From: a virus
Length of the DNA: 21,501 bases
IMG/VR virus record: IMGVR_UViG_3300009702_001279
Location: 1-21,501 of that record
Strand: one strand, 5' to 3'
In this document: one piece after another, positions 6,168 to 21,501 of the stretch
Numbering within the stretch: position 1 is the stretch's first letter
Layout of the letters: each line of letters opens with the position of its first letter
Program-made: the position numbers and the translations under genes
The notes under the pieces: model-generated
What the model saw: the letters and a program-made list of their open reading frames with translations, nothing else
What the model was told of the DNA's origin: nothing
The model's database searches: none

Positions 6168-6914
6168 ATGGAACAATTCGATAGCGTATATTTCAGCGGC
6201 CAGGGGCCGCTCTTCATCGGCAGCCGGGATGCGGCAGGCAACCCGGCCGGCCTGGTCTTTGTGGGCGACCTCTCGGAAGCCAGCCTGACGCCCAGCGTCG
6301 AGACGGCAGAAGTCGTCGAAAACGTCTCCGGCCAGGGCGCCATCGGCAACAGCTTCACCAAAAAGGTGGAATACCAGCTCAGCATCACCATGCGCTCCGT
6401 CAAACCCGAACACCTGGCGTTGGCGCTACAGGGTGCCGTCACTACCAAGATCGCCGGTAGCGTCACTGACGAGGCGCACAAAGGTTACCTGGGCAAGATG
6501 ATCCCGCTGGACAACCCCAAGATCAGCACCGTGGTCGTCACCAATGCAGCCGCGACAACCACCTATGTCGTCGCGACCGACTACATCGTGCACGCCGATG
6601 AAGGCCTGATCGAAATCGTCAGCACAGGCAGTATCACAGAAGCAGAAGACCTGCTCATTGACTACGCCTATGCCTCGCAGGATCACGTCAAAGTCGCGCC
6701 GGCCAACGCGGAAAAATACCTGGTCTTCTCCGGTATGAACCGTGCCAACAACAACAAACAGACGCGCTGCGAGATTTACAAAGTCAAACTCGACCCGGGC
6801 GTCCTCGGCCTCATCCAGGAAGACCAGGCCGAAATGCCGATCACAGGCCGCATCCTGATCGACTCCCTACGTACCGCCGGCGACCAACTCTACAGCTGGA
6901 AGATCGAGCAGTAG
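6168..6914 (+). CDS. Major tail tube protein
   Basis: This 248-residue protein should polymerise into the tail tube. The beta-rich sequence, the early GPLFIGSRDA and VGDLSEASLT segments, the ELSITM-like strand (YQLSITMRSVKP) and its place after the terminator and before the assembly chaperones all fit. Residues about 92-170 form an inserted beta module ending TTYVVATDYIV...LLIDYAYAS, which has a counterpart in the capsid protein. GAGGAAAG sits just before the ATG, suggesting high expression. No sheath gene lies beside it, which argues for a non-contractile tail. Confidence 0.82.
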   Translation: MEQFDSVYFSGQGPLFIGSRDAAGNPAGLVFVGDLSEASLTPSVETAEVVENVSGQGAIGNSFTKKVEYQLSITMRSVKPEHLALALQGAVTTKIAGSVTDEAHKGYLGKMIPLDNPKISTVVVTNAAATTTYVVATDYIVHADEGLIEIVSTGSITEAEDLLIDYAYASQDHVKVAPANAEKYLVFSGMNRANNNKQTRCEIYKVKLDPGVLGLIQEDQAEMPITGRILIDSLRTAGDQLYSWKIEQ

Positions 6915-6972: not shown

Positions 6973-7134
6973 ATGACAGAGACAACACCCAAAGCGCCAA
7001 AAAAGGTGAAAATCAAACTGCTGGACGACAACCACACCCACCGTGGCGAGCCGTGCAGAAAGGACGACATCATCGAAGTGCGAGAAGACCAGGCCAGGCG
7101 CCTGATCGAAGCAAAGCGCGCCACCGCCGCATAG
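6973..7134 (+). CDS. Small tail-region protein, DUF7210-like
   Basis: This 53-residue protein has a good ribosome site (AGGAGC at 6962-6967). Its pattern is VKIKLLDDNHTHRGEPCRKDD, then IIEVREDQARRLIEAKRA. This is a short beta strand, a His-x-His-x-Gly turn, an acidic step and a helix that packs a Leu-Ile pair. The pattern matches small proteins, which I associate with DUF7210, that lie next to tail tube and capsid genes in many temperate phages. Function is unknown. It is too short for many gene callers but is well supported by spacing and pattern. Confidence 0.75.
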   Translation: MTETTPKAPKKVKIKLLDDNHTHRGEPCRKDDIIEVREDQARRLIEAKRATAA

Positions 7135-7161: not shown

Positions 7162-7608
7162 ATGACAACGCAAAAACCCGATAACGAGCTGGATGCACTC
7201 CTCCCGGATAGCGACATCGAGATCCGCGGTGAGGCCATCACGGTCACGGAAATAACCTTCATCCAGTCGCTGCCGCTGGAGCCGGTTATCCAACCCATGA
7301 TCGACGATCTGGCGGAGCTGTTCATTGGTGATGACAGCCGCGATGACGGCGCCGCCGTCTCGTACCAGGCCATGGCGTCAGTGTTCGGTTCGCACGCCGA
7401 ACTGTTGCTGCGCATGCTCTCACTGGCCACCGGAAAACCGCGAGACTGGATCGAATCCTTGAGCGATGCAGACGGACAACTGCTCACCATGACCTTCTGG
7501 CAAGTGAACAAGGATTTTTTTACCAGGCGGCTCGTCATCGAAACGATGGCGGGCAAACTGAAGCACAAGGACGCAGTGCCGGATGGGGCCGCGTCTTTGC
7601 CACACTGA
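7162..7608 (+). CDS. Tail assembly chaperone G
   Basis: This 148-residue acidic protein lies directly before the tape measure gene, the standard place for the lambda gpG equivalent, which coats the tape measure protein and recruits tube subunits. Residues 20-100 are helical (PVIQPMIDDLAELFIG; FGSHAELLLRMLSLATGKP). The last 28 residues, after the slippery site at 7515-7521, are translated only by ribosomes that stay in frame. Those that slip make the longer GT product. A weak site, AAGGT at 7150-7154, precedes the ATG at 7162. Confidence 0.78.
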   Translation: MTTQKPDNELDALLPDSDIEIRGEAITVTEITFIQSLPLEPVIQPMIDDLAELFIGDDSRDDGAAVSYQAMASVFGSHAELLLRMLSLATGKPRDWIESLSDADGQLLTMTFWQVNKDFFTRRLVIETMAGKLKHKDAVPDGAASLPH

Positions 7609-7787
7609 TCGCCCATGGGCACCGGCGTAGCGACCTGCCGCACTACACCCTGCGGCAGATACAGCTGTACTACCGCGAGGCGCTGGTCCTCGATGAACAC
7701 GCCCGCGCCAACCGCATCGAGGACGTCGCCATTGCCTTCGGCAGCAAAGACATGAACAAGATCGTGAGATCACTAAGGAAACGCTAA
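7162..7787 (+). CDS. Tail assembly chaperone GT, by -1 frameshift
   Basis: A -1 slip at 7515-7521 joins the first 120 codons of G to 88 codons in the -1 frame (7521-7784), giving a 208-residue product. The -1 frame is open throughout and encodes a convincing T domain, including GWGRVFATLIAHGHRRSDLP, then YTLRQIQLYYREALVL. In lambda-type tails G and GT are made in a fixed ratio, and the T part binds tube subunits. The T frame has no ATG near its start, so frameshifting is the simplest route to its expression. It ends in TAATG, overlapping the tape measure start. Confidence 0.85.
7515..7554 (+). promoter_or_regulatory. -1 ribosomal frameshift signal: T7 slip site plus hairpin
   Basis: Seven consecutive T residues (7515-7521) lie in the exact T-TTT-TTT phase of the G frame, a canonical slippery heptamer. 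After an 8-base spacer (7522-7529), an 11-base-pair stem pairs 7530-7540 with 7544-7554 around an AAA loop, with two G-U pairs. Spacer length and stem strength are in the usual range for stimulating -1 slippage. The elements are read directly; only the efficiency is unknown. Confidence 0.85.
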
Positions 7788-10042
7788 TGACCAGTGATAA
7801 AGAACTGCTGATCAAAATTCGCGCCGACATACGCCAGTCGTTGCGCGAGATGAAGCGCATGTCGAAGGAAATCCGCACGACCGGAACGGCCTTAGAGAAA
7901 TCATCCAGGCAGGTAGCGTCGATGGGAAAGGCCATGACCTTTCTCAAAAGAGGTGCAGCGGCGTATCTCTCGTTGCGGTTGGCGAAAGCGTTGGTCTTGC
8001 AGGCTGATGATTTCAATACCTTACAGGCGAGGATTAAAACCGCCACGCGTGAAACGGGAGATTATGTTGAGGTATCAAAGAAGTTGTTCTCGGTATCTCA
8101 ACAGAACGGGTCATCGCTGGAATCCAGCGTGTCGCTCTTTCAAAGGCTGGCATTGTCAGCCAAAGCCCTTGGCGCGACCAACAAAGACATCATAACGGTA
8201 ACTGATACGGTACAGAAGCTGGGTGTAATAGGCGGGTCATCTACCGCTGCAATGGCGGCAGGCACAATCCAGTTCGGGCAGGCACTTTCATCCGGGACGG
8301 TTCACGCGGAAGAAATAAATTCAGTCATTGAAAATATGCCTGAATTGGCAGTCAGAATAGAAAAGTCACTAAAACTACTGCCAGGCACGCTGAAAAACGC
8401 CGTTGTACAAGGCAAGGTATTAAGCCGCGATGTCTTCCAGGCGCTCTTGAGAAGTGCGCCTGAAGTCGCAAAAGAATTTGAATCAATTCCTGATTCCGTA
8501 CGACGTTCATCACAGTCACTATCGAACAGTTTTGACAAGTTCCTCAGTCAACTCGACAGTTCTATCGGACTCACGCAGCGGCTGGCGTCACTCTTCAGAT
8601 CGCTATCTGACGAGTTGGCAGGAACCGGCAGGACGACAGCGCAAATTCGTAAAGATATCGAGGCGCTGCGTCAGCGTGGCCCCTCAAGCCGATTGGGCGG
8701 CCAGGCGGACTTCAAGGCTGGACTACGACGACTGGAAAACGAACTGAATGCAGCGCTTGAGAAAGCGGGTGGTATTGGCGGCATCAGCTTAAAACTACAA
8801 AATCTGGATGACCAGATCGCACAGCTGGATTCCAGGCTTGAAATAAGTGCAGGGTCTCGTAACCGACGCGCAGCGGTTGTTATCCAGACGCGCCTTACAG
8901 AACTGAAGCGCCAAAAATCAACACTGCTGGATGCGTTGGCAAGCGCTGAATTTAATAGCGGTGGCCCCGCCCCGAAGAAAACCCCGTCCGGGCCTACACC
9001 CGATCAACAGCAGTTACTTGACAGTAATAATAAAATCGTTAGCGCGCTACAGCTGCAAGCGGCAACCTTTGGAAAGACAAGCGAACAAATCGCCCTCTAC
9101 AGGCTGGAACTGAACGGCGCAACACCAGCACAACTGAAGGCGGCGAGGGCGGCTATTGATTCAACCAACGCCATGCGCGACCAGGTGAGCGGCCTGCAGG
9201 CAGAAATCGCCGCAGAACAAGCACTGACTGCGGCGCAGGACGACAGGAACCAGCAACTCAAGCAAGAAGGCCAGCAGGTCATCCAGGACACCCTCACGGC
9301 TCAGGAGCAGCTCAACCAGAAGCTGGCACATTACCGAGAACTGCTTAACGCCGGCACCATCAGCCAGGACGTCTATGATCGCGCCAAAACAAGCGCACAA
9401 CAGTCGTTTCAGGAAACGGCAGATTCAGGCGACAACACCTTCGCCCAGTTAAAGGATGCAGGCAGACAATGGGGCGACTCGTTCACCAACACACTGGCAG
9501 ATATCGTCACCACCGGAAAAGGCAACTTCAAGGACCTGGCCGACTCCATCATCAAAGACCTCGCGAGAATCGCGATTCGGCAGTCGATCACAAAGCCGCT
9601 ACTGGCCGCCGCTGGTATTCCAGCATTCGCCTCGGGTGGGCCTGTGGTTGGTCCGGGCACTGCGACATCAGATTCCATACAGGCCCGTCTGTCAGCCGGT
9701 GAATATGTTATCCGTGCCGATGCGGTGCGCGCCTACAGTCCGCAGTTTCTGGAGGCCATCAACCAGATGCGACTGCCGCGTTATGCCAACGTCCCGCCGA
9801 TCACCATTTCCCGACCCGGGACGCACTTCGCCTCTGGCGGCCTGGTCGATGGTGCGCGCCCAGCCGGCGATGTGAAAGTCGAGATCGTCAACAATGGTCA
9901 ACCGGCCCGTGTGACAGACACCCAGGTGAGCGTAGATCCCAAGGACTTTATCATCCGCGTAATGATCGAAGACCAGAACAGCAACGGTCCGGCGATAACC
10001 AACCTGCAGAGCACCTTCGGGTTGCGTAGGTCCCCACGCTGA
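7787..10042 (+). CDS. Tail tape measure protein
   Basis: This 751-residue protein sets tail length and helps DNA entry. Residues about 55-260 match the phage tape measure N-terminal domain (LQARIKTATRETGDY; LFQRLALSAKALGA; IQFGQALSSGTVHAEEINSV). Residues 260-590 are largely coiled-coil with many Gln and Ala. The end carries AFASGGPVVGPGTATSDS and ARLSAGEYVIRADAVRAY (about 612-650), the usual C-terminal module. At roughly 0.15 nm per residue the tail would be near 110 nm, an inference. The ATG overlaps the T stop, and its own stop overlaps the next start. The first half (to about 9100) is visibly more AT-rich than the rest. Confidence 0.93.
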   Translation: MTSDKELLIKIRADIRQSLREMKRMSKEIRTTGTALEKSSRQVASMGKAMTFLKRGAAAYLSLRLAKALVLQADDFNTLQARIKTATRETGDYVEVSKKLFSVSQQNGSSLESSVSLFQRLALSAKALGATNKDIITVTDTVQKLGVIGGSSTAAMAAGTIQFGQALSSGTVHAEEINSVIENMPELAVRIEKSLKLLPGTLKNAVVQGKVLSRDVFQALLRSAPEVAKEFESIPDSVRRSSQSLSNSFDKFLSQLDSSIGLTQRLASLFRSLSDELAGTGRTTAQIRKDIEALRQRGPSSRLGGQADFKAGLRRLENELNAALEKAGGIGGISLKLQNLDDQIAQLDSRLEISAGSRNRRAAVVIQTRLTELKRQKSTLLDALASAEFNSGGPAPKKTPSGPTPDQQQLLDSNNKIVSALQLQAATFGKTSEQIALYRLELNGATPAQLKAARAAIDSTNAMRDQVSGLQAEIAAEQALTAAQDDRNQQLKQEGQQVIQDTLTAQEQLNQKLAHYRELLNAGTISQDVYDRAKTSAQQSFQETADSGDNTFAQLKDAGRQWGDSFTNTLADIVTTGKGNFKDLADSIIKDLARIAIRQSITKPLLAAAGIPAFASGGPVVGPGTATSDSIQARLSAGEYVIRADAVRAYSPQFLEAINQMRLPRYANVPPITISRPGTHFASGGLVDGARPAGDVKVEIVNNGQPARVTDTQVSVDPKDFIIRVMIEDQNSNGPAITNLQSTFGLRRSPR

Positions 10043-18832: not shown

Positions 18833-19489
18833 ATGAACAAAATAATGATGCAGTTGGATTTTTCCGGTGTTGTGCTGCCGGTTATCGAAGATGAGCAGGG
18901 CCAGCAGGTTGTCCCTCTCAAGCCTATATCCGATATTTTTGGGCTTAATTGGTCTGATCAGCACAAGCGGATGCAGACCCCCTATTTGGCACAAAGATTG
19001 GGGGTCTGCATAGGGGAACTCCCCTATGCAGGTCAAAGACGAAAGATGGTCTGTATCCGTTTGGACAGGGTGTCTGCCTACCTGTACACCCTGAATCCAG
19101 ATCAGATCCGCGTAGGTGGAAACGCTAAGGGCGCTGATTTTCTCGAAGCCAAACACGAAGCGTGGGATGACCTGCTTCACGACTATGAAGTTGCCAGCGG
19201 CATTCTTTCTAAAAACGAGAGCCTTAAATCCGAGTCTGTCCGGTTGAGAAAAATCAGCTCTTTCCTCTCGATATGTCGCGAAAAGCGGGTCACACAGAGC
19301 ATTGCTGATCGCCTGACGTTGTCCGATTTGGCGCAGCAACTGGCGGCCGAGGTTGGGGTTCCCTACCAGATGGACTTTGAAGAGACTGACGTTGTCGTGG
19401 GCCTGCTCCAGGATGCCGATCAAATTCAGGACGCTGAGCTGCGAGGCATGGCCATTGAATTTATTAACAAGGTAAAGAAAACGGCTTGA
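18833..19489 (+). CDS. Antirepressor with P22_AR_N domain
   Basis: This 218-residue protein matches the P22 antirepressor N-terminal family: VVPLKPISDIFGLNWSDQHK, then RKMVCIRLDRVSAYLYTLNP (about 70-89), then a helical middle (HEAWDDLLHDYEV). Family members bind and inactivate phage repressors. The C-terminal part (about 130-218) is helical and unassigned. A GAGGAGA ribosome site precedes the ATG. Codons about 47-66 overlap a striking set of inverted repeats (18971-19030), which may regulate its translation. It is the second gene after the early promoter. Confidence 0.8.
   Translation: MNKIMMQLDFSGVVLPVIEDEQGQQVVPLKPISDIFGLNWSDQHKRMQTPYLAQRLGVCIGELPYAGQRRKMVCIRLDRVSAYLYTLNPDQIRVGGNAKGADFLEAKHEAWDDLLHDYEVASGILSKNESLKSESVRLRKISSFLSICREKRVTQSIADRLTLSDLAQQLAAEVGVPYQMDFEETDVVVGLLQDADQIQDAELRGMAIEFINKVKKTA
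18971..19030 (+). repeat. Mutually exclusive hairpins inside the antirepressor gene
   Basis: A 12-base perfect inverted repeat (18971-18982 with 19000-19011, 17-base loop) overlaps a 10-base perfect inverted repeat (19007-19016 with 19021-19030, 4-base loop). The two share 19007-19011, so the RNA can fold one way or the other but not both at full length. The layout recalls attenuators and antisense targets. Confidence 0.65.
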
Positions 19490-20594: not shown

Positions 20595-20872
20595 AAGCGC
20601 CGGAAGGCCTGCAACGTGCGCGGGTGTGGCTGACGCCCGGCTATCCCCGGCTGGCAGCGCCAGGCATTGCGCTGACGCTGATGGTGGATCGCTGGAATGA
20701 CAACGGCCGGTATGAACTGCGGGTGGTGCCGGACATTTTACGCCAGGTGCCTGTGCCGGTGTTGGTACAGGAGTTTTGGCTGCTTGTGCGGTCGGTGCGG
20801 CTGGATGTGCTCGGCTATCCCGATCGCGCGCTGGTGGAGCTGGCCTACGCGCCAACACCCACCCTTCACTGA
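20558..20872 (+). CDS. Early protein of unknown function
   Basis: This 104-residue frame starts at a GTG (20558) with an AGGAGGA ribosome site at 20547-20553. The sequence looks folded, with a strand-like start (GEVLHIINADVEAPEGLQRA) and later ALTLMVDRWNDNGRYELRVV, followed by VPVLVQEFWLLVRSVRLDVL. I do not recognise the family. It directly precedes the recombinase gene, with a 14-base gap containing that gene's ribosome site, so the two are probably co-transcribed. Confidence 0.62.
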   Translation: MGEVLHIINADVEAPEGLQRARVWLTPGYPRLAAPGIALTLMVDRWNDNGRYELRVVPDILRQVPVPVLVQEFWLLVRSVRLDVLGYPDRALVELAYAPTPTLH

Positions 20873-20886
20873 CGGAGGAGACAACG

Positions 20887-21501
20887 ATGTATGAGAGACG
20901 AGTTTTCGAACGCTATTTGAAGGCCGACGAGGAGCGCACGCTGTTGCGCACGGTCGCGCAGTTCGGCGAGGTGCTGGCCCGCCGCGATCTGCACTGGATG
21001 ACACTGCTGCGCCAGACCGGGATCCGCGTCGGGTCGCTGGCGCAGTTGACGGTGGGCGATGCCCTGCAGGCATTGTCGGGCGCTGCGCCGCACCGCCTGC
21101 CGCTGCGTGCGGACATTTCAAAGGGCCACCGCGGTTACCAGGTGTTGCTGAACCAAAAGGCGCAGAAGTCGCTGCGTGCACTGCTACGCATTCGCAAGGA
21201 AATGGGCCACCCGCCCGTGCCTGAGCACCCGCTGATTATGAGCCGCAACCATCGAGGCATCAGCGTGCGCTCGCTGCAGGACCGCATGCACAAGTGGGTA
21301 CTGGCCGCCGGCATCGGTGTGGAGGCAACGCCGCACTGGTTCCGCCATACCCTGGCGAAACGGCTCATCGAACGAAGCACAGCCAACGACCCGCGGGCCG
21401 TGGTACAGCACGCCCTGGGACACCACAGCAGCAAGAGCAGCGCGGTGTATACCTTCCCGGATCGCGAGGAACTGGAACGGTCGATGGAGGAAGCGTCATG
21501 A
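20887..21501 (+). CDS. Small tyrosine recombinase (site-specific integrase)
   Basis: This 204-residue protein carries the tyrosine recombinase catalytic set: Arg47 in TGIRVGSL, a Lys at about 79, His150 and Arg153 in HWFRH, His179 in LGHHS and Tyr188 in AVYTF, with the usual 9-residue His-Tyr spacing. The ATG at 20887 has ACGGAGGAG upstream. It is short for a phage integrase, and the N-terminal core-binding domain appears to be missing or minimal. It may integrate the phage, resolve dimers or control early recombination. No attachment site was found beside it. The stop is the last codon of the window. Confidence 0.83.
   Translation: MYERRVFERYLKADEERTLLRTVAQFGEVLARRDLHWMTLLRQTGIRVGSLAQLTVGDALQALSGAAPHRLPLRADISKGHRGYQVLLNQKAQKSLRALLRIRKEMGHPPVPEHPLIMSRNHRGISVRSLQDRMHKWVLAAGIGVEATPHWFRHTLAKRLIERSTANDPRAVVQHALGHHSSKSSAVYTFPDREELERSMEEAS

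Follow-up and report, generated by a model that had tools for sequence, protein, structure and literature searches.

A probable programmed -1 ribosomal frameshift in tail assembly chaperone genes of an uncultivated virus, with an invariant slip site and an optional hairpin among relatives

The stretch of viral DNA analysed here (21,501 nucleotides; the window) raises the question of how two overlapping reading frames, located between the genes for a major tail protein and a tape measure protein as in the G/GT layout of tailed phages, are expressed together. In phage lambda, the corresponding overlapping frames also lie between the major tail and tape measure genes, a -1 shift late in G appends T to a minority of G, and both gpG and gpGT are required in a set ratio, the tape measure protein being bound by G and the major tail protein by T (PMC5009743). 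As judged from its sequence, the window very probably uses a programmed -1 ribosomal frameshift that would fix the relative amounts of two tail assembly chaperones, with a hairpin as probable stimulator; we infer both the slippage and its rate. The locus appears to be best read as a further representative of the G/GT class of -1 frameshift sites, carrying an optional hairpin on an invariant slip site.

All elements of the locus are on the plus strand. G (7162-7608) codes by ordinary translation for a tail assembly chaperone of 148 amino acids, which matches DUF6631 (PF20336; E 7.8e-17, 61.9 bits against a curated cut-off of 27) and the tail assembly chaperone family phrog_1442 (E 6.8e-31, 108 bits). 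Upstream lies the expected partner, a major tail protein with an Ig-like domain (6168-6914; phrog_807, E 5.1e-62), and downstream the tail tape measure protein (7787-10042; TMP_3, E 2.5e-47; Tape_meas_lam_C; phrog_339). The T part extends in the -1 frame from 7521 to 7787, comprising 88 codons (7521-7784) and a TAA (7785-7787) whose final A, at 7787, also begins the tape measure start codon (TAATG), and was recognized by its translation, a conserved T motif and a match to phrog_8022 (E 2.5e-5). The proposal of the initial annotation that a T-like domain in the -1 frame ends at the tape measure start is therefore borne out, the frame being open over all 88 codons and the domain conserved while devoid of a usual start. 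ATG, GTG and TTG are absent from the T frame between 7347 and 7752, and the first usual start occurs only within the last 11 codons, so T would not readily be made alone.

The motif Leu-Ile..Gly-His...Tyr-Thr..Gln of the T part is kept in homologs that are read via the same shift, at 27-43% identity. The family phrog_8022, which is annotated as having an unknown function, is matched by the T part of the window and by 60 of 71 homologous T parts, which identifies it, on sequence grounds, as the conserved T portion, encoded in the -1 frame, of this group's gpGT. An orphan family thereby gains a place, and those of its members that are recorded as proteins in their own right probably reflect genes that were split by mistake. 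The label "T-like" is based on position, frame and conservation, homology to lambda T being undetectable at the level of sequence. No credible family was found for T in Pfam, a sequence search of solved structures with G and T gave nothing credible, and the fold of T had no significant match among viral models. The AlphaFold model of G reached a pLDDT of 88.6, but no match below E 1 was returned when it was searched with Foldseek, and the HK97 chaperone 2ob9, although second among the realigned chains, aligned to it with a Z of only 4.1 and an rmsd of 8.9.

The presumed shift site is the slippery heptamer U_UUU_UUU at 7515-7521 within the G/T overlap, which has the X_XXY_YYZ form and is read in frame 0 as GAT TTT TTT ACC, the two TTT triplets being codons 119 and 120 of G. 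It is followed by an 8-nt spacer, ACCAGGCG (7522-7529), and by a hairpin at 7530-7554, in which the arms GCTCGTCATCG (7530-7540) and CGATGGCGGGC (7544-7554) form 11 pairs, two of them G-U, around an AAA triloop (7541-7543). A phase-correct T7 slip site, an eight-base spacer and an 11-base-pair stem with an AAA loop had all been named in the initial annotation and are present as described there. Its span for the element, 7515-7554, holds the heptamer, spacer and stem, but leaves out an outer 3-bp helix predicted by RNAfold, CAG/CTG (7524-7526/7558-7560), which encloses the hairpin across a 3x3 internal loop and extends the structure over 7524-7560, and the T domain reaches 7784. Folding of 7522-7562 with RNAfold yielded -21.5 kcal/mol (z -5.7), a value equalled by none of 200 shuffles, and only three hairpins with at least 11 bp and a loop of 3-8 nt occur on the plus strand of the 21.5 kb window. 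A hairpin as good as this one, placed 5-9 nt past the heptamer, arose in 9 of 5000 dinucleotide shuffles. The window thus has a stable structure in the interval of 5-9 nt after the heptamer, with its spacer of 8 nt and 11 bp; a scan of the whole window against Rfam gave no match at gathering thresholds.

In the mechanism suggested by this arrangement, most ribosomes would finish G at its own stop and release gpG of 148 amino acids. In a minority, with the UUU UUU Phe codons in the P and A sites, the two Phe tRNAs would slip back in tandem by one base, and these ribosomes would continue in the T frame to yield a predicted gpGT of 208 amino acids (120 + 88) with the junction ...VNKDFF-YQAAR.... 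Slippage is probably increased by the 11-bp hairpin beyond the 8-nt spacer, which would keep the ribosome in place over the heptamer. By analogy to lambda, the G part would bind the tape measure protein, while the T part would recruit the major tail protein. Slippage of 6-7% has been measured for other phage tail chaperone genes (PMC3711429). The locus represents a clean and testable -1 frameshift element.

The relatives of the locus show how far its parts are conserved. Loci collected with G are biased toward the heptamer, because the search pattern included the two Phe residues, and the T domain alone was therefore used as query. All 80 loci recovered in this way carry an in-phase X_XXY_YYZ heptamer at the homologous place, namely TTTTTTT in 54, TTTTTTC in 18, CCCTTTC in 7 and TTTTTTA in one. 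Pooling them with the G-based loci gave 249 loci, or 88 representatives below about 80% identity, of which 31 have T6C at the homologous site. TTT serves as the first slip codon in 84 of 84 representatives, although across the rest of G this triplet makes up just half of the Phe codons, and a T stands directly in front of it in 83 of 84 versus 17%; as the representatives are not fully independent, p-values for these biases are overstated, but their direction is plain. In-phase T6N heptamers also appear in distant loci from genome searches (among 18, in those read on the coding strand). Relatives without slip site and stem that nevertheless encode both products, the finding named in the initial annotation as speaking against the element, were sought and none was found. 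Two apparent exceptions to the heptamer dissolved on inspection: "CTTTTTT" in loci L018 and L019 is part of an in-phase T9, and "TTTCTTC" in L156 gives way to an in-phase CCCTTTC. The nine T's of L018 (1151-1170; AGC TTT TTT TTT CGT) could allow polymerase slippage in addition to ribosomal slippage at that locus. Note that a single-protein scan of viral contigs with G revealed no relative, whereas profile scans did, that searching phages at the nucleotide level returned nothing, and that no relative above about 43% protein identity was found.

The hairpin behaves differently from the slip site. Starting 5-9 nt downstream of the heptamer, a hairpin of -9 kcal/mol or better is found in 30 of the 88 representatives, compared with 13.4 +/- 3.0 in dinucleotide shuffles of the same downstream stretch (0 of 300 reach 30) and 8.8 +/- 3.7 in upstream control blocks. 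At -15 kcal/mol or better the count is 15 versus 2.5 in shuffles, and z values below -2 occur in 17 of the 88 as against 6% of control windows. The excess of hairpins is real, but some of the scored stems are certainly due to chance, at the -9 threshold perhaps roughly half. In many relatives the slip site and T domain persist while a strong stem is lacking, as in phage VW-6B, which has T7 and the T domain, yet only about -6 kcal/mol downstream; the stem is therefore not a general part of the element. The complete element of slip site plus stem, as initially annotated, holds for the slip site in all relatives examined, but not for the stem. The stem arms are built from different sequences among the relatives: between L044 and L048 a T-A pair is replaced by A-T and the bulge has shifted, yet both retain their stem, and the fold of L012 mirrors the architecture of the window with other bases, including a short outer helix, a 3-nt internal loop and an 11-bp stem. 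Mapped on the GT protein tree, presence of the stem requires 24 changes against a mean of 25.2 for shuffled labels and is scattered without clustering; the idea that the stem arose only once was abandoned, as the label is no less scattered than the shuffled ones. We tentatively consider that the slip site is fixed, whereas the stimulatory hairpin might have been gained and lost repeatedly from unrelated 3' arms, such that phages could tune their gpG:gpGT ratio via fast-evolving hairpins in the dual-coded G-T linker. Relatives sharing the slip site, either with or without a hairpin, represent a natural experiment on the contribution of the hairpin to slippage.

These comparisons also bear on other explanations of the locus, one of which affects the role of the stem and leaves the frameshift untouched. 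The slip site may work alone, and the stem at 7530-7554 would then be incidental, forced by Arg-Arg-Leu-Val codons together with GC-rich dual coding. Lambda-type sites can function without known structure, the 5' arm of the window stem indeed falls in the conserved RRLV codons, and the many relatives lacking a strong stem fit as well; an incidental stem is nevertheless unlikely in view of the rarity of an equal hairpin at that spacer in shuffles (just 9 of 5000) and of the shuffle count of 2.5 beside the 15 of 88 relatives at -15 kcal/mol or better.

The remaining alternatives concern the shift itself. RNA polymerase might add or skip a U within T7, with part of the mRNA encoding GT in one frame, as the seven-T run of the window and the T9 of L018 might suggest. 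However, the runs of the T6C representatives (31 of 88) and of the CCCTTTC relatives are too short for this, every site keeps the exact codon phase, and the excess of hairpins 5-9 nt downstream argues against it as well, leaving transcriptional slippage very improbable. Even less credence can be given to T as a separate gene with its own start: some records, such as that of Rashabar, annotate pieces as separate small ORFs, but the T frame offers no usual start until 7752, which lies past the conserved core. A sequencing or assembly error, in which one missing or extra T in the homopolymer run would split a single gene, is already refuted by the relatives, since an identical split, around heptamers of varied sequence, recurs at the same position in 80 of 80 T-domain loci on separate contigs, as well as in sequenced isolates.

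The closest described systems are those of the D3112-like and related Mu-like siphophages MP38, MP42, DMS3, PaMx73 and phiSHP3, which contain a homologous G (DUF6631/phrog_1442) at about 33-36% identity and share the gene order, the slip position and a -1 shift that leads into T immediately ahead of the tape measure gene. They differ in carrying T6C instead of the T7 of the window, and the 11-bp triloop hairpin at 8 nt has another sequence and shape than the structures at that place in those phages of the set that were folded. Lambda G/GT has the overlapping frames in common with the window, together with the -1 shift late in G that is proposed here, but its slip site differs and no sequence homology was detected. 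The -1 signal of E. coli dnaX is similar in combining a heptamer with a downstream stem-loop at a short spacer; it also has an upstream Shine-Dalgarno-like stimulator, and the gene and the outcome differ. Pseudomonas phage VW-6B and Klebsiella phage Kp4852-3 have homologous G and T and the same T7 followed by an ACC codon, but no comparable hairpin downstream. In GenBank, the entries for MP38, MP42 and phiSHP3 already show gpG/gpGT or a joined frame, with the slippery sequence marked as well in MP42, and T_TTT_TTC of PaMx73 (D3112 group) was described in 2014, with -1 frameshifting named as the usual situation for tail genes of phages (PMC4378225). By sequence, the window is a further member of this known G/GT group at about 31-43% identity, and what is added to the record, as far as found, is slight, consisting of the survey that indicates an invariant slip site with an optional and varied hairpin.

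Some further features of the window may be recorded. A small DUF7210 ORF (6973-7134) lies between the major tail protein gene and G; in Kp4852-3 and, judged by size, in VW-6B and Rashabar, a small gene like it is found ahead of the major tail protein gene instead, and a local gene rearrangement is possible. The ORF at 1-2619 (872 amino acids) has a Mu-like I protease domain (PF10123) in its N-terminal part (residues 55-340) and matches phrog_22848 in its C-terminal half (302-852); it is apparently a fusion of a protease-scaffold with the major capsid protein. The short gap past this capsid ORF contains a strong, GC-rich hairpin of 13 bp (2639-2670; -29 kcal/mol), which looks terminator-like or regulatory. 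A near-perfect 14-bp palindrome with a 4-nt loop (19003-19034) is located within the ORF at 18833-19489. The ORF at the right end (20776-21501) resembles by eye a tyrosine recombinase with an HxxR-type C-terminus; the head genes, however, are Mu-like.
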